In this document: positions 4,032 to 36,227 of the stretch, piece after piece
Layout of the letters: each line of letters starts with the position of its first letter
Position numbering within the stretch: position 1 is the first letter of the stretch
Assembly (NCBI GenBank): GCA_013138965.1
Contig: WTBT01000053.1
Location: 1 to 40,854, forward strand
From: Candidatus Aegiribacteria sp.
Lineage (GTDB): Bacteria; Fermentibacterota; Fermentibacteria; Fermentibacterales; JCC-6
DNA: 40,854 nucleotides
Direction of reading: 5' to 3'
Program-made: the position numbers and the translations under genes
The notes under the pieces: generated by a model
Seen by the model: the letters and a program-made list of their open reading frames with translations, nothing else
What the model was told of the DNA's origin: nothing
Databases searched by the model: none

Positions 4032-5186
4032 TTAACTTCTGAAGAATGGCGGGTGCTTTTTCCTTTCCTCCTTTCCGGCGGTTCTGGCGGCTCCAAGAAT
4101 GAAGGGGATTCTATCTCGCTCAATATCCCTTGAAGCACTCTGAGATTTCAGACTTTCAGGCAATCTGAGGTCCACTGAATCGATTTCCATATCTTCGATC
4201 TCGCCGAAACCTGTTGCAATGACGGTAACTTTCAGTTTATCACCCATACTTTCGACTATACTGGTTCCCAGCGATACATCAGCCTGCGCTCCTACAGCCT
4301 TTGTAACGACCTCTACCGCCTCGTGGAACTCAGCGAATTTCATGCTTGAAGAAGCCTGAATACTTACAAGAAGTGACTGCGCGCCCTCAATCGATACATT
4401 TTCCAGAAGCGGGTCCGATATGGCTCTGCTTGCTGCTTCGGAAGCACGGTGTTCACCGTTGCAGCAGCCTGTGCCCATCATGGCGCCTCCACCGGTTGTA
4501 ATAACCTTCTTGATATCCTGAAAATCCAGGTTCATGAGACCAGGAGATGAAATTATGTTCGCAATACCTTCCACCGCATCCTTCAGTGTTCTGTTGCCTC
4601 TCTCTAAAGCATTGCACAGCGTCTCATCATCACCGGCTTCACGGCGCAGGCTGTCGTTAGGGATGACAATCAGGGTATCAACCTCTTTTCGCAGTGCTGA
4701 TATGCCCTGCTCGGCTCTGTTTTTCTTAACTGATCCCTCGATCTCGAAGGGTCTGGTTACGACTCCGACAGTGATGGCATTAAGTTCCCTTGCGATGCGA
4801 GCCACGACGGGAGCTGCTCCGGTGCCTGTTCCTCCACCCATGCCGGCAGTAATGAAAACCATGCTGCAATCCTGGAGGCTTTCGACAATTTCATCTCTGC
4901 TCTCCTCAGCGGAACTCTCTCCTGTTTCAACATTTCCGCCAGCCCCCAGACCACCGGTAAGCTTGGGGCCGAGTTGCACTTTCAGATCCGGCTCGCAATT
5001 CTGCAGTGCCTGAAGATCAGTATTCAATGCGATATACTCAACGCCCACAATGTCAGCATTCAACATCCTGTCAATGGCGTTGCAGCCACATCCGCCGATA
5101 CCAACCACGACTATCTTCGGTTTGCCATGATATTCCTCGGTCACGTCAACTATCTGGAGCCTGGGTCCTTCCTCTTGCGGTATCAT
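4032..5186 (-). CDS. ftsZ: Cell division protein FtsZ
   Basis: Tubulin-like GTPase that forms the Z ring. The nucleotide loop GIGGCGCNA near the N-terminus and the tubulin signature GGGTGTGAAP are intact, as is the T7 loop region (NLDFQDIK). I chose ATG 5186 (384 aa) because AGGAGAGG lies just upstream; a GTG at 5204 in the ftsA stop region would add six residues. It starts 17 bp after ftsA and is the last gene of the dcw cluster. The C-terminus is unusual: an IPFIL segment resembles the conserved FtsA/ZipA-binding peptide (IPAFL) but is not terminal, and a basic HPPFFRS tail follows. Confidence 0.97.
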   Translation of the reverse strand: MIPQEEGPRLQIVDVTEEYHGKPKIVVVGIGGCGCNAIDRMLNADIVGVEYIALNTDLQALQNCEPDLKVQLGPKLTGGLGAGGNVETGESSAEESRDEIVESLQDCSMVFITAGMGGGTGTGAAPVVARIARELNAITVGVVTRPFEIEGSVKKNRAEQGISALRKEVDTLIVIPNDSLRREAGDDETLCNALERGNRTLKDAVEGIANIISSPGLMNLDFQDIKKVITTGGGAMMGTGCCNGEHRASEAASRAISDPLLENVSIEGAQSLLVSIQASSSMKFAEFHEAVEVVTKAVGAQADVSLGTSIVESMGDKLKVTVIATGFGEIEDMEIDSVDLRLPESLKSQSASRDIERDRIPFILGAARTAGKEERKKHPPFFRS

Positions 5187-8643: not shown

Positions 8644-9713
8644 TACGAACCCTCCTCTGCAGTGCTGATCACGATTTCCGCGATGGTGCCTGCCGGATTG
8701 ACAGGCATTATTCCCTCCAGAGAGGATTTCATTCTCTGAATCGTCAATTCATCTTCAAGCAGACTGCTTATGGTTTTCCAGAGAGCATCGGCATCGGTAC
8801 TCTCCTGAAAGGAAACCAGAGCTCCTCCCTTGTCTGCTATCTCCAGGGCGTTCCATTTCTGATGATCATCAGCGGCGAACGGGTACGGTATATAAACAGA
8901 GGGGATTCTGAACCATGTCAATTCCGCGACGGTCATCGCCCCCGAGCGAGCCACCGCAATATCAGCAGCCGAGTAGAGAAGCGCGGGATCATCCACAAAA
9001 TCGATTGCCTGAATCATCTGAAGATCGGATGATTCTTCACTGATTCTTTTCTTATCTCTGCTGCCGCACTGAAGAAGCACGTACACATTTTCCGGAGCCT
9101 TAAGAGCTGTATCGTTTATCGCTCTGGCGCCCTGGCTTCCGCCAAGAAAAAGCACAACCGGAATGCCATCAGGAATATCCAGTTTCTCCCTGGCATAACC
9201 TCTGTCGTATTTCTGAAGTGAAAGCCTGACAGGATTTCCGGAGTGAACAGCTCTTCTTCTAAAGCCCGAAGTGGCCGAAGGGAAGCCTGTAAGCACTTTA
9301 TCCGAAAAACGGGAAGCCAATCTGTTCGCCCTTCCGGGGATACTGTTCGACTCATGTATTATTGAGGGAATACCCAGGCTGCGCGCAGCTACAACCGGGA
9401 AAAAGGACGGATAGCCTCCTGTGGCAAAAAGCACGGAAGATCCCAGCTTGCGGAGCAGTTTCCTTGTCTTGAAGAATTCCCGGCCAGCCCTGAAAGGCAG
9501 CAACGCAACATCCAGTATACCTCTGTCGATCCGTGGAGGGTTCAATATATGTACTGCATCGCCGAATTGCTGGTACATTCTCCTGTCAACAGGCCGGGGG
9601 GTAGCTATGAAATCGATACTGGTATCCGGATACCTCTCACGGATGGCCTCAGCTACGGCAATTGCAGGACTTATGTGACCACCGGTGCCTCCTCCTGCTA
9701 TGGCAACGTTCAT
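8643..9713 (-). CDS. murG: UDP-GlcNAc:lipid I GlcNAc transferase MurG
   Basis: GT28 glycosyltransferase that converts lipid I to lipid II on the inner face of the membrane; 356 aa. The N-terminal GGGTGGHISPA loop and the C-domain GGSQGARAIN and SGAMTVAEL motifs are present. It overlaps ftsW by 4 nt and murC by 1 nt. Confidence 0.97.
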   Translation of the reverse strand: MNVAIAGGGTGGHISPAIAVAEAIRERYPDTSIDFIATPRPVDRRMYQQFGDAVHILNPPRIDRGILDVALLPFRAGREFFKTRKLLRKLGSSVLFATGGYPSFFPVVAARSLGIPSIIHESNSIPGRANRLASRFSDKVLTGFPSATSGFRRRAVHSGNPVRLSLQKYDRGYAREKLDIPDGIPVVLFLGGSQGARAINDTALKAPENVYVLLQCGSRDKKRISEESSDLQMIQAIDFVDDPALLYSAADIAVARSGAMTVAELTWFRIPSVYIPYPFAADDHQKWNALEIADKGGALVSFQESTDADALWKTISSLLEDELTIQRMKSSLEGIMPVNPAGTIAEIVISTAEEGS

Positions 9714-19044: not shown

Positions 19045-19485
19045 TCAGTAGATATCTATGTCGATTTCCTCAATGGCTTCTTCCAGAGAGGATACCTGTT
19101 CCTTTTCCCGTCCAGCGTACCGCTGGGCAGCCCATAGTTCGATTGAATCAAGCAGACCGATGAAAACGATTTCATGGGTCATTCCGGAAACCTCGATCAG
19201 GTCGGAAGGAATGGTTATCCTGCCCTGACCGTCTATATTCACAGGTCGAATGTACTGGGAGAACTCGCGAATAATGTCCCTGTTTTTTTTGATGTTCCTG
19301 GAGAGCGAAGCAAGCCCGTCCCTGACTTTCTGCCACTTCTCCGGCGGGTAGAGAATAAGACTTCCCTCCATACCCTTCCCGATGAAAAGGCCTTCTCTGG
19401 GCAGCTGCTTTCGAAACTGGGCGGGTACGCTTACCCGGCCTTTATCGTCAAGCGTATGTATGTGCTTCCCTGTGTAATCATTCAT
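19045..19485 (-). CDS. mraZ: Transcriptional regulator MraZ
   Basis: First gene of the dcw cluster; 146 aa with two SpoVT/AbrB-like half-domains, each with a DxKGRV-type core (DDKGRVSVPAQFR and DGQGRITIPSDL). MraZ forms a ring and binds repeated TGGGN sites upstream of its own operon. Such sites are present here. ATG 19485 has a GGAGGG six bases upstream. Confidence 0.96.
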   Translation of the reverse strand: MNDYTGKHIHTLDDKGRVSVPAQFRKQLPREGLFIGKGMEGSLILYPPEKWQKVRDGLASLSRNIKKNRDIIREFSQYIRPVNIDGQGRITIPSDLIEVSGMTHEIVFIGLLDSIELWAAQRYAGREKEQVSSLEEAIEEIDIDIY

Positions 19486-19984: not shown

Positions 19985-20036
19985 TTTGACAATGTGAAAA
20001 TTATAATTTTGACAATTATTTGACAATGTTTATATT
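19985..20036 (+). promoter_or_regulatory. Promoter and TTTGACAA array upstream of HTH-ATPase regulator
   Basis: Three copies of TTTGACAAT start at 19985, 20008 and 20019 (offsets 0, 23, 34). The second supplies a TTGACA -35 (20009-20014) that sits 16 bp before a TATATT -10 (20031-20036). The -10 ends six bases before the ATG, and no Shine-Dalgarno is visible, so the message is predicted to be leaderless or nearly so. TTGACAA is an odd palindrome (TTG-A-CAA), as expected for a dimeric binding site. Confidence 0.6.
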
Positions 20037-20042
20037 TTACCG

Positions 20043-21056
20043 ATGGATACAATAACACAAATACTTATATGTTTTAAGAATAGCGGCTCATTGTCTGGAT
20101 CTGATATTGCAAGGATTCTTGGAATATCCAGGCAAGTTGTCAATTACCATCTCAAGAAACTGGTCCTGGAAGGTCGAGTAACAAAGTCCGGCAGAACAAG
20201 GAGCGCTGTCTATACACTTGCAGAAACTGACGGATCAGAAGCACTTTGTAGAAACTGGACTCACCGTTTTAAAATAGGAACAATTGAGGAACATGACCTT
20301 TTCAACGAAATGTCACAGATAATGAATCTGAATAGAAAAGTTACTCTTAATGTGTTTGATATTTATCAATACGCATTCACTGAAATGGTCAACAATGCCA
20401 TCGAACATTCGCTGGGTAGCCGTGCAGAAATCGAAACATTCTTGGGAGAATACAACTGCGGATTCTCAGTAAGGGATTGGGGAATCGGAGCTTTTGAATC
20501 GATCCGGAACGGGATGAATTTGAATCTTATTCAAAGCGCGGTGCATGAAGTACTGAAAGGTAGAAAAACAACGTCTCCAGCAGGACATACTGGAGAAGGC
20601 CTGTTCTTCACAAGGAGATGTGCAGGCAGATTCTCAATTTCTGCAAATGGGTCAAAGTTGATATTTGATAACACACGCGGTGATGCAATCCTTGAGAAGA
20701 TCAGGAGAATGAAAGGTACATTTATCGAATTCGATATTTCCAGAAACAGCAGAGAATCATTACGGAGTGTTTTCAGCAAGTACTCACCCGAGGAATACGA
20801 TTTCAGTTTCAGGAAAACATCCATACGGATTTCTCTCTACTCAACTGCTCCTCAAAGTCGATCTCTTGCAAGACGCATAATGGCAGGACTTGGAGAATTC
20901 AGAGAAATCGCACTGGATTTTCAGGGAGTAAGAATGCTTGGTCAGGCTTTTTCGGATGAGATATTCAGAGTATATGCCAGCGCGCATCCGGATATGAAGA
21001 TATCTGTAATAAACATTGCTGACGAATTAAAGCCGATGATAAAGCATATTATTTGA
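20043..21056 (+). CDS. wHTH - GHKL ATPase - STAS-like (DUF4325) regulator
   Basis: A 337-residue protein, isolated from neighbours and on the opposite strand. Residues 1-60 form a winged helix-turn-helix (SGSDIARILGISRQVVNYHLKKL). Residues about 80-230 are a histidine-kinase-like ATPase without a phosphoacceptor domain: N box EMVNNAIEHS (114-123), G1 DWGIGA (145-150), G2 GHTGEGL (181-187). Residues about 268-335 match the STAS-like DUF4325 fold (LDFQGVRMLGQAFSDEIF). Family members with this architecture have no firmly known role to my knowledge; the parts suggest an ATP-dependent DNA-binding switch. It is flanked by near-identical three-site TTTGACAA arrays, one over its promoter and one starting in its stop codon. 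That suggests autoregulation (inference). Confidence 0.8.
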   Translation: MDTITQILICFKNSGSLSGSDIARILGISRQVVNYHLKKLVLEGRVTKSGRTRSAVYTLAETDGSEALCRNWTHRFKIGTIEEHDLFNEMSQIMNLNRKVTLNVFDIYQYAFTEMVNNAIEHSLGSRAEIETFLGEYNCGFSVRDWGIGAFESIRNGMNLNLIQSAVHEVLKGRKTTSPAGHTGEGLFFTRRCAGRFSISANGSKLIFDNTRGDAILEKIRRMKGTFIEFDISRNSRESLRSVFSKYSPEEYDFSFRKTSIRISLYSTAPQSRSLARRIMAGLGEFREIALDFQGVRMLGQAFSDEIFRVYASAHPDMKISVINIADELKPMIKHII

Positions 21057-21094
21057 CAAATTCAAATTCTGCATTTTGACAAAGATTTTACAAT
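21052..21094 (+). repeat. Second TTTGACAA array, downstream of the regulator
   Basis: TTTGACAAA starts at 21052 (overlapping the TGA stop) and at 21075, and a variant TTTTACAAT starts at 21086. The offsets 0, 23 and 34 are the same as in the upstream array, and the orientation is the same. No -10 element is positioned after it, so it does not look like a promoter itself. The first copy lies in an 11-bp palindrome ATTTGACAAAT. Confidence 0.6.
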
Positions 21095-21358: not shown

Positions 21359-23548
21359 TTATTTCTTTTTATCATGGTAGTAATAGTGATACTTGTAGGT
21401 GTAGTAACTGTATGAGGTATAGGTGTTCAGGGGATCAAATCCATTCAGAACGGCGCCAACACTGTGGCCGGCCCCCCTCTGAAGTTTTTCCCATGCTGAC
21501 TTGAGCACCCTCCTGTCGATCTTTTTAACACCCACAACCATAAGTGTGGCATCGACTTCTGGACTCATCACAACAGGATCGGTAACGACCGCAATCGGAG
21601 GGCTGTCGAAAATAATCATGTCGTAGTTCTTTTTCAATAATGCATGAAGATTCCTGAATTTTCCGCTGCCGAGTAATTCCGAGGGATTATGCGGCATATG
21701 CCCGGATGTAAGAACTGAGAGATTCTCTATACCCGTGCTGTTGACAGCTTCTTCCAGCGGAATCATACCGGTTACCGTTTCAGAAAAACCGGGCTCCTGT
21801 TTAAAGCCGAACATCTTATGCATCACGGGGCGTCTCAGGTCAGTATCCACAATAAGAACCCTCAATCCGGCCTGAGCAATGGCTACAGCAAGGTTTCCAG
21901 CTGTAGTGGATTTGCCTTCCCCGGGGCCGGCGCTGGTAACCAGAATCGAGTGTACCCCCTCCTCAATGGCGCTGAAGCGAAGGCTTGTTCTGAGATCTCT
22001 GTACGCCTCGCTGGCAGCCTGTCTCGGAGCGGTCACCATTATCAACCCCTGTTTGCCCCCGGGAATATTGACATCGGACCTGGGCACCTTCGGTATCACA
22101 CCGATAACAGGAATGCCCAGATTCTCGATATCCTCGGGGTTCTTGATGGAAGAATCGAGCTGCTCCTTCAGGAATATGAAACCTATTCCAGCGGCCAGTC
22201 CCGCGAATATTCCCAGGATCAGATTTCGTCTTTTATTGGGTTTGATCATACTGCCGGGAAGAGCTGTGTCGACTATTGTTACATTACCGATCTGACCCGC
22301 TTCTGCGATTCTGACTTCTTCCCACCTGGTTCTGAGCAGAAGGTAGATATCTTCACTCACTCTCCAGTTTCGTTCGAGCCTGAGAAGTCTCAGTTCCAGC
22401 TCAGGAAGAACCGAGATGTTGTCTTCGATTTCCCGGATAATACTTCTTAGAACAGATTCCCTGATCCTCTCAGCCCTGAGCTGCGATTCAACCGTTACGA
22501 GTTGTGATACTATTCCCTGAAGAGACTGGGCTGGATTCTGGGGATACTGACTGTAAGCGGCTTCCCCAAGCGCCTGCGTAAGGGCTTCCCTTCTGACGGA
22601 GATCTGACGGTCAAGATCCTTTATAACATCGTCATCCTCTGTGCCGCCCCGGGACATCAGTGAGGCCCTGGAGGATTCAAGTGTTGCTATATCGCTTTCA
22701 AGCTGAGCGATGAAGGCAGTATTCAGGTTGGCAATATCCTCAGCTAAACCGGCGCGACCGGTCTCAAGCTGATCTGAGTAATAGGTCTTCTGCGCCTGCA
22801 GGGCTCCCTGTTCAGTCCTTGATGTAGCTGCCGCGGTTTCGAATGTTGACAGATTTCTTACGATCTGAGCTGTTTCGGTACTCAGGCTTACTATTCCATG
22901 TTCCTCCTTGAACATGGTCAGGGAATCCTCAGACTCAGAAAGCACCGTCTCCATGATATCAAGCTGCTCAGCAAGGAATTCCTTAACCAATGTGTTCTCT
23001 CCGCGGGTATCAGCGAGATTTTTTCTGTAGTATGTCTGAACTACAAGGTTAGTCATTGTGGCTGCAGCCCAGGGAGAATAACCGGTCGCGGAAAGAACGA
23101 AGAAATCGGTATCCTTCATAATACTGATGGAAATACTGCCCCTGATCATTCCGATAAGTGAACCTCTGAGATTGCTCTGCGGTACTTCCAGATCGTAGTA
23201 AAGGATAGCCAGCAGACTGTCCGAGTTAGGTGACTTCAGAATCGAATCGGCTACCGACTCAGCCATGTTTCTGCTGTGAATCAGCTGTATCTGGTTGTTC
23301 CGCATGGGATCCATCTCGAACCATAACACGTTCGATATATTGAGCGCCTGGGTCATGTTGCTGCTGACATTGAAGATGAACGTGGCGGACGACCTGAATA
23401 CAGGTTTTATTCTGGAAGTCATCCAGATACTGGCGGTTATGGAAGCTATCAGAAATCCCAGAACAATCCATTTATTATGATACAGAAGCCACAGGTACTC
23501 AGAAATGTTTATAGATTCTCGCTCTTCCTGAAAAATATCGTCATTCAT
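21359..23548 (-). CDS. Polysaccharide co-polymerase / bacterial tyrosine kinase (Wzc-type)
   Basis: A 729-residue fusion of a Wzz-type chain-length domain and a BY-kinase. Transmembrane helices lie at residues about 29-48 and 442-461, bracketing a periplasmic coiled-coil-rich region. The cytoplasmic kinase has Walker A GPGEGKST (541-548), Walker A' VLIVDTDLRRP and Walker B MIIFDSPP. The C-terminus carries nine tyrosines within residues 710-724, the autophosphorylation cluster. Such proteins control capsule or exopolysaccharide polymerisation through cycles of Tyr phosphorylation. It overlaps the SLBB gene by 4 nt and ends the four-gene operon. No cognate phosphatase is nearby. Confidence 0.92.
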   Translation of the reverse strand: MNDDIFQEERESINISEYLWLLYHNKWIVLGFLIASITASIWMTSRIKPVFRSSATFIFNVSSNMTQALNISNVLWFEMDPMRNNQIQLIHSRNMAESVADSILKSPNSDSLLAILYYDLEVPQSNLRGSLIGMIRGSISISIMKDTDFFVLSATGYSPWAAATMTNLVVQTYYRKNLADTRGENTLVKEFLAEQLDIMETVLSESEDSLTMFKEEHGIVSLSTETAQIVRNLSTFETAAATSRTEQGALQAQKTYYSDQLETGRAGLAEDIANLNTAFIAQLESDIATLESSRASLMSRGGTEDDDVIKDLDRQISVRREALTQALGEAAYSQYPQNPAQSLQGIVSQLVTVESQLRAERIRESVLRSIIREIEDNISVLPELELRLLRLERNWRVSEDIYLLLRTRWEEVRIAEAGQIGNVTIVDTALPGSMIKPNKRRNLILGIFAGLAAGIGFIFLKEQLDSSIKNPEDIENLGIPVIGVIPKVPRSDVNIPGGKQGLIMVTAPRQAASEAYRDLRTSLRFSAIEEGVHSILVTSAGPGEGKSTTAGNLAVAIAQAGLRVLIVDTDLRRPVMHKMFGFKQEPGFSETVTGMIPLEEAVNSTGIENLSVLTSGHMPHNPSELLGSGKFRNLHALLKKNYDMIIFDSPPIAVVTDPVVMSPEVDATLMVVGVKKIDRRVLKSAWEKLQRGAGHSVGAVLNGFDPLNTYTSYSYYTYKYHYYYHDKKK

Positions 23549-35940: not shown

Positions 35941-36016
35941 GTGGGAGTAGTTCAGTTGGTAGAGCCCCTGATTGTGGATCAGGTGGTCGCCGGTTCAAGT
36001 CCGGTCTCCCACCCCA
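35941..36016 (+). tRNA. tRNA-His (GTG)
   Basis: Acceptor GTGGGAG pairs with CTCCCAC, anticodon loop ATTGTGGA gives anticodon GTG, T-arm GCCGGTTCAAGTCCGGT, and CCA is encoded. A G at 35940 fits the extra G-1 of tRNA-His. Confidence 0.97.
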
Positions 36017-36020
36017 CAAT

Positions 36021-36096
36021 GCGCCTCTAGCTCAATTGGCAGAGCAACGGACTCTTAATCCGTAGGTTCCGGGTTCGATTCCCGGGGGGCGTACCA
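36021..36096 (+). tRNA. tRNA-Lys (CTT)
   Basis: Cloverleaf with acceptor GCGCCTC/GGGGCGT (G-U first pair), anticodon loop ACTCTTAA giving CTT, T-arm CCGGGTTCGATTCCCGG and encoded CCA. It lies 4 bp after tRNA-His. Confidence 0.97.
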
Positions 36097-36105
36097 GAAA
36101 ATTAA

Positions 36106-36130
36106 GCCGCGGGGTCACGCACCTCGCGGC
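36106..36130 (+). other. GC-rich hairpin between tRNA genes
   Basis: GCCGCGGGG pairs with CCTCGCGGC (one G-U) around a 7-base loop. No T-run follows, so it is not a typical terminator; it may separate precursor tRNAs for processing. Confidence 0.5.
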
Positions 36131-36150
36131 GCCACATACATAAAGCAGGT

Positions 36151-36227
36151 GCGCCCGTAGCTCAGCTGGATAGAGCAGCGGACTTCTAATCCGCAGGCCA
36201 CAGGTTCGAATCCTGTCGGGCGTACCA
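36151..36227 (+). tRNA. tRNA-Arg (TCT), island attachment gene
   Basis: Acceptor GCGCCCG/CGGGCGT, anticodon loop ACTTCTAA giving TCT, T-arm CAGGTTCGAATCCTG and encoded CCA. The recombinase ORF on the other strand enters its 3' half and stops in the anticodon region at 36186, the arrangement left by integration at a tRNA 3' end. Confidence 0.97.

Follow-up and report, generated by a model that had tools for sequence, protein, structure and literature searches.

Arrays, gene and promoter-like site

The locus described here raises the question of why a gene for a probable regulator should carry a similar array of three short sites at both of its ends, i.e. one in front of its start codon and one across its stop codon, and which protein would use them. 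The window (the whole stretch of DNA that was analysed) comprises 40,854 nucleotides from Candidatus Aegiribacteria sp. and contains the following features:

19985..20026, + strand: upstream three-site array (sites 19985-19992, 20008-20015 and 20019-20026; offsets 0/23/34), also kept in homologues
20009..20036, + strand: promoter-like site (-35 TTGACA at 20009-20014, in array site 2; -10 TATATT at 20031-20036)
20043..21056, + strand: gene for a wHTH - GHKL/HATPase-like - DUF4325 (STAS-like) protein of 337 aa
20049..20180, + strand: winged helix-turn-helix (wHTH), residues 3-46 (HTH_24, 32.5 bits, above the cut-off of 21.9)
20358..20660, + strand: GHKL/HATPase-like domain, residues 106-206 (HATPase_c_2, 17.2 bits, below the cut-off of 27.4)
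20877..21026, + strand: DUF4325 STAS-like domain (PF14213), residues 279-328 (41.1 bits, curated Pfam cut-off 23)
21052..21093, + strand: downstream three-site array (sites 21052-21059, 21075-21082 and 21086-21093), overlapping the stop codon

The motif TTTGACAA occurs exactly at positions 19985, 20008, 20019, 21052 and 21075, always on the + strand; the window has no further exact copy. Both arrays have identical offsets (0/23/34) and different filler between the sites, and the TGA stop codon (21054-21056) sits within the first downstream site. The preliminary description, which had claimed two matched arrays, was correct in positions, spacing, orientation and differing filler, but left unstated the one mismatch in the third downstream site, which reads TTTTACAA (21086). 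Over 100 shuffles of the window the motif was found 1.46 times on average, and five copies were reached by 1 shuffle. Chance repeats are ruled out by these shuffles together with the pattern scans of the genome and the phylum and the control stretches at 92 loci (see below).

By Pfam scores the window protein is a member of the DUF4325 (PF14213) family as well as a winged-helix regulator, which bears out the domain order proposed earlier, with an ATPase domain that scores below its Pfam cut-off. In this GHKL-like domain, which gives weak PDB matches to VraS/DesK, the groups E114/N117/N118/H122, D145/G147/G149 and H182/G184/G186 (which we presume to be the named motifs of such domains) are invariant or nearly so among 48 sequences, and control by a nucleotide is therefore likely. 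Among solved structures, the wHTH closest in sequence is that of AspA (E 9e-5, wHTH portion only). What we take to be the position of the serine in phospho-accepting STAS domains (aligned by eye) seems to be G300-Q301 here, and it therefore looks unlikely that the DUF4325 domain is phosphorylated in a partner switch. Membership of a defence, CRISPR or phage family was dropped as a candidate, since the comparison gave generic wHTH/HATPase matches apart from one phage family of unknown function (phrog_3364).

The promoter-like site matches the consensus at 11 of 12 positions and has a 16-bp spacer that contains array site 3; promoter-like sites number 10 in the region, versus 6.1 expected. Its -10 box (20031-20036) stops six bases ahead of the ATG, a gap that by eye is equal in L053, L054 and L055, which suggests a leaderless transcript. 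The gene lies between a divergent mraZ (19045-19485) and a convergent Wzc-like gene with GNVR and AAA_31 domains (21359-23548). Elsewhere the window contains a tmRNA gene and three tRNA genes (Rfam), at 1500-1851 and 35941-36224.

Occurrence in the genome and the phylum

In the source genome (2.92 Mb in 110 contigs, 94% complete) the three-site pattern with 0/23/34 offsets and up to 3 mismatches was found just at the two arrays of the window, and a reversed control gave 0 matches. Across 42 genomes of the phylum eight arrays were found, two each in G000, G001, G002 and G015, with each pair surrounding the gene and pointing in its direction (reversed control: 1 match in 42 genomes). The protein itself is matched at E ≤ 0.001 in 22 of 60 genomes (own included), many of these matches being short or weak; those covering most of the protein amount to ten rows, own gene among them. 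The nearest homologues in the phylum, in G001 (48% identity) and in G002 and G015 (40%), have 0/23/34 arrays at both ends, as the preliminary description would require of relatives. This did not extend to distant subfamilies, for which other motifs, an upstream array alone or no array was found; in the same genus, other subfamilies (L007-L009) have GTTTACAAC-type sites in a different layout. Two remnants with 71-72% identity to the window protein also occur in the genus, one with two array sites beside an internal piece of the gene (L025, 1501-1652) and the other with a single TTGACAA beside a C-terminal piece (L013, 472-642).

Targets away from the gene are scarce. Comparison of coordinates in 22 gene-carrying genomes placed 32 of 32 three-site matches at the gene, and with two sites 29 of 37 matches in 24 genomes were at the gene and 8 elsewhere, with G067 accounting for five of these; the control gave 3 matches. 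At these three- and two-site strictnesses no regulon beyond the gene itself was found in the 22 and 24 genomes, and the search for further arrays proposed earlier yielded only the gene's own two in the source genome. Among 395 Desulfobacterota genomes six contain eight arrays, seven of which are at intact or decayed copies of the gene. One solo array is present in G447 (L171 1501-1542, G447:C17), where a gene copy was sought and none was found; this array follows a tRNA-Cys gene at a distance of 101 bases and lies in a stretch that differs between species.

Homologues beyond the phylum

Relatives were collected by scanning one genome per species (84,980 species), and the best 80 of at least 519 confirmed matches were combined with 12 loci from genome searches into a set of 92 loci. 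Within this set L045 and L005 are one contig, L006, L173, L174 and L175 are near relatives of others, and contig ends leave L075 without an upstream and L098 without a downstream side. Arrays of free spacing that score at least 18 of 21 were found upstream at 62 of these loci, at the stop codon at 23, inside the gene at 1 and far downstream at 1; for the full score of 21 these counts are 36, 10, 0 and 0. An upstream array scoring at least 18 is absent in 30 of the 92 loci, and many relatives have the upstream array alone. With the spacing fixed at 0/23/34 and a score of at least 19, the best 80 of at least 519 relatives gave 19 upstream and 11 downstream arrays, versus 0-8 and 0-3, respectively, for ten alternative fixed spacings at the same loci. 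The downstream arrays (score at least 18, 23 loci) fall between -35 and +28 around the stop codon, the search having covered -60 to +150.

Two-array loci carry the labels Fermentibacterota, Thermodesulfobacteriota, Myxococcota, Verrucomicrobiota, Lentisphaerota, Spirochaetota, Fidelibacterota, Caldisericota, Melainabacteria and WOR-3, labels that mostly come from metagenome bins and of which some may be wrong. When the two-array label (19 rows) is mapped onto a tree of 91 proteins, it requires 8 changes, versus a mean of 17.5 after shuffling, and is therefore clustered, with losses or gains. The spacing of the upstream array equals that of the downstream array in 18 of 22 two-array loci, whereas permutation gave a mean of 9.96 and 0 of 10,000 permutations reached 18. 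Even odd spacings agree at both ends (24/11 in L047 and L068, 23/12 in L049, 24/12 in L118). Spacing differs between the ends in L055 and L082, and also in L104 and L117, which are built differently and are counted within the 22 despite their other layout.

Some loci vary the arrangement. L051 has two complete tandem arrays upstream (4885-4981) that flank an apparent -10, the second of them just ahead of the start codon, and none was found at its stop codon. In L068 the downstream sites 2 and 3 are TTGTCAA, the complement orientation of a near-palindrome, which suggests that the array site may be read as TTGWCAA.

Candidate binding protein

The preliminary description had taken the arrays as binding sites for the encoded protein, and this is now strongly supported by conservation in homologues, covarying spacing, sites that are better conserved than the filler in the close pairs compared, and a match between motif and recognition helix. 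Because the type of motif follows the class of the recognition helix, it is very probably the encoded protein that binds the arrays. Loci of SRQ..N proteins have TTGACAAT in 43 of 45 cases; SRQY proteins (13 loci) have TTTACAAT in 9 and TTGACAAT in 7, and SRQ..A.H proteins have CTTACAAT in 3 of 5. With SR[TAV]Y..R proteins TT[GT]ACAAC is found in 16 of 19 loci and TTGACAAT in 0 of 19. These classes were drawn after the comparison of close pairs had been seen, leave 10 of the 92 loci classless and include related sequences that are not independent.

In that comparison, which used hand-chosen pairs, changes amounted to 1/63 in the sites versus 12/60 in the filler upstream (3 pairs, p 0.0008) and to 3/84 versus 15/80 downstream (4 pairs, two of which have L075 in common, p 0.002). 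The downstream sites have decayed in G264, where the gene is reduced to a remnant, and are still intact in G311, where the 5' part of the gene is deleted.

Proposed autoregulation and bridging

Following these results, the reading that we prefer, with a probability of about 0.5, is that of a self-contained wHTH/GHKL-like/DUF4325 autoregulator that would bind both ends of its own gene and probably bridge them. Its winged helix would bind the three-site arrays at both gene ends and at few or no other places in the genomes checked. Upstream, the bound protein would sit on the -35 box and on the spacer between -35 and -10, and its own promoter should thereby be repressed; the positions of the sites point to such autorepression, since occupied upstream sites would block polymerase. 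The array over the stop codon would most likely be a second anchor, and protein on both arrays might then be bridged, closing the gene of ~1.07 kb into a loop, in the manner of lambda CI on OL and OR. Since the two ends have kept one geometry, the protein assembly on them is presumably the same, and bridging would be its simplest use. Binding of ATP by the GHKL-like domain would probably switch either DNA binding or oligomerisation.

The two ends differ in their promoter signature. Among the two-array loci, 7 of 19 upstream arrays have a -10 box of at least 5/6 behind site 2 and 3 have one behind site 3, whereas of the 20 downstream arrays none has it behind site 2 and 1 has it behind site 3. 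With the threshold lowered to 4/6, site 2 is followed by a -10 in 12 upstream and 3 downstream arrays; for site 1 the counts are 12 upstream and 14 downstream (again out of 19 and 20). The promoter argument therefore rests on sites 2 and 3, as the weaker -10 follows site 1 at both ends. What distinguishes a looping autoregulator, i.e. two multi-site operators with one over its own promoter, is present here as a matter of sequence. The distance between the arrays ranges from 1046 to 1119 bp in 19 hand-placed loci, with no common helical phase by eye, and at 1 kb such distances neither support nor exclude a loop. Against this reading, the downstream arrays found at this score all lie close to the stop codon, which a loop would not demand, many relatives have just the upstream array or none, and L051 has its second array ahead of the start codon instead.

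Alternative explanations

The arrays could instead be the ends of a minimal array-gene-array unit that moves between genomes, either by recombination at the arrays or in trans through an unseen recombinase, with autoregulation as a by-product. Paired arrays share filler, with a likeness of 0.61 within loci versus 0.45 after permutation (18 loci, 0 of 5000 permutations reaching it; L006, L173, L104 and L117 dropped, the downstream array of L082 placed by hand). Likeness drops outside the array, to 4.2/15 (own) versus 3.8 (cross) in the right flank and to a slightly raised 5.3 versus 4.4 in the left. In some related copies the similarity of the DNA stops at or just past the arrays (in L053 and L054 it runs from -62 to +18), and the available flanks have no tblastx match. 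Phylum labels change 39 times on the tree of 91 proteins (a label without a shuffled control), the array in G447 has no gene, and remnants or partial duplicates occur elsewhere. Furthermore, 18 distant relatives (31-37%; L153-L170) are in viral contigs, some of them from isolate genomes and so perhaps prophages. Of these 18, however, only 3 have an upstream array scoring at least 18, with spacings unlike 23/11, and 0 have such an array downstream, and the window protein itself has no match among plasmid or phage records.

Features expected of a mobile unit were not found, i.e. a recombinase gene or terminal inverted repeats and more than one full copy per genome. The single-gene unit has no recombinase domain, its ends are direct instead of inverted repeats, and no genome among the 12 examined has two full copies (10 of them have one that is full or nearly so), the second matches in G002, G015 and G018 being remnants or distant (25%). 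Several sets of loci each occupy one site (L061/G288/G475/G311; L044/48/50 and Nitrospira; L104/106/117, the last by common upstream sequence). The fragment common to L104, L106 and L117, which presumably is the end of mnmG, lies 1.1, 2.6 and 3.9 kb upstream, and these three therefore probably have a locus in common. Neither an empty site nor a target duplication was found among the few close relatives compared, and the Syntrophaceae series displays decay of the gene, not clean absence. Ordinary horizontal transfer of the gene with its operators explains most of the evidence for a portable unit, which we consider rather unlikely.

A broader form of the same idea, in which array-gene-array would be a selfish or portable one-gene module across many phyla, whose protein recognises its own borders, whose arrays are re-matched by recombination or conversion and whose scars are solo arrays, is put at a slightly lower level, as unlikely. 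Here the repeated re-matching is read from common filler together with common odd spacing. Tandem duplication of array and gene with subsequent loss of the second gene found no support in the right flank (4.2 vs 3.8 of 15, 19 loci), although gene fragments occur in L069 and L117. Insertion linked to tRNA genes was dropped, a tRNA lying at most 200 bp from the gene in 2 (L043 and L110) of the 34 loci scanned. Some copies have repeats or fragments around them: in L069 a second array followed by a decayed 5' gene copy (9460-9600) lies 4.4 kb downstream of the start of the intact copy, in L117 a gene tail precedes the upstream array, and long direct repeats surround gene copies in L073 (about 230 bp), L120 (167 bp) and L078 (102 bp).

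The downstream array could also act as a roadblock or insulator, at which bound protein halts transcripts that run on out of the gene or antisense transcripts that run into it, to an extent that scales with the protein level. Its place at the stop codon, rarely with a -10, fits this. A simple terminator scan of 88 loci found terminators at 2 of 22 two-array loci versus 19 of 66 others (shuffled 8/88; Fisher p 0.08), but a folding-based scan gave 7/23 versus 21/57 (p 0.80; 80 loci, after nine near copies and loci with less than 170 downstream bases had been dropped and L075, L106 and L110 reassigned to the two-array class). Replacement of a terminator by the downstream array, which the first scan had hinted at, was rejected after the second and better one. 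Nor are convergent neighbours commoner, at 6 of 17 two-array loci versus 18 of 30 with an upstream array only and 11 of 27 others (counted on open frames of at least 100 aa, not annotated genes, as are all neighbour counts here). A roadblock seems rather unlikely.

That the downstream array would serve as operator for a partner gene lying beyond it, as the open frame beginning just beyond the array in L096 could suggest, is highly improbable and largely refuted by -10 and neighbour counts, since 19 of 20 downstream arrays lack a -10 of at least 5/6 behind sites 2 or 3, downstream neighbours vary in orientation and distance (3 of 17 two-array loci have one on the same strand within 60 bp) and the next long frame in the window is convergent. 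Equally improbable are centromere-like arrays of a one-protein system for positioning or tethering DNA, analogous to plasmid par loci with their parC1 and parC2, for which one could cite same-direction arrays on either side of a gene for a DNA-binding and presumably ATP-binding protein whose nearest solved wHTH is that of AspA, part of a partition system; there is no plasmid match (carrier genomes measure 1.1-4.6 Mb, most contigs being unassigned to chromosome or plasmid), the ATPase is GHKL-like with no ParA-type Walker or actin/tubulin-like ATPase domain found, and each array has merely three sites.

Relation to known systems and significance

In phage lambda, cI sits between OL and OR and controls itself, and both operator sets control promoters. 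CI links two sets of three operators in a DNA loop (PMC5880393), and the locus described here is alike in its two three-operator sets, with a bridging that is proposed. It differs in having an unrelated protein, in distance (2.3 kb in lambda vs 1.07 kb here), in a promoter signature confined to the upstream array, and in that no further regulated gene was found. For par2 of plasmid pB171 the constructs are listed in the order parC1, parA, parB and parC2 (PMC4270457), with binding regions on both sides of genes for an ATPase and a DNA-binding protein, unlike the present case in its ParA/ParB proteins and in being plasmid-borne. RcoLS20 of pLS20 likewise regulates its own promoter, but has its second operator downstream of the conjugation promoter, at a distance described as more than 85 bp, instead of at its own stop codon, and the conjugation genes are also under its control (PMC4207663). 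In titles and abstracts of the open-licence literature no description of an array-gene-array arrangement was found, and in the same literature no function or binding site of DUF4325 (PF14213) proteins was found in print, one mention of DUF4325 being a row of an annotation table.

A widespread family for which no printed function was found hereby gains a testable DNA target, with a specificity (helix class to motif class) that is readable from sequence. It is unusual for a DNA-binding protein to have its sites mostly at its own gene, and it would seem that the protein has its real output in something other than transcription, or else that the unit acts on its own behalf. The paired and covarying arrays may in addition provide a natural series on how two distant operators stay matched.
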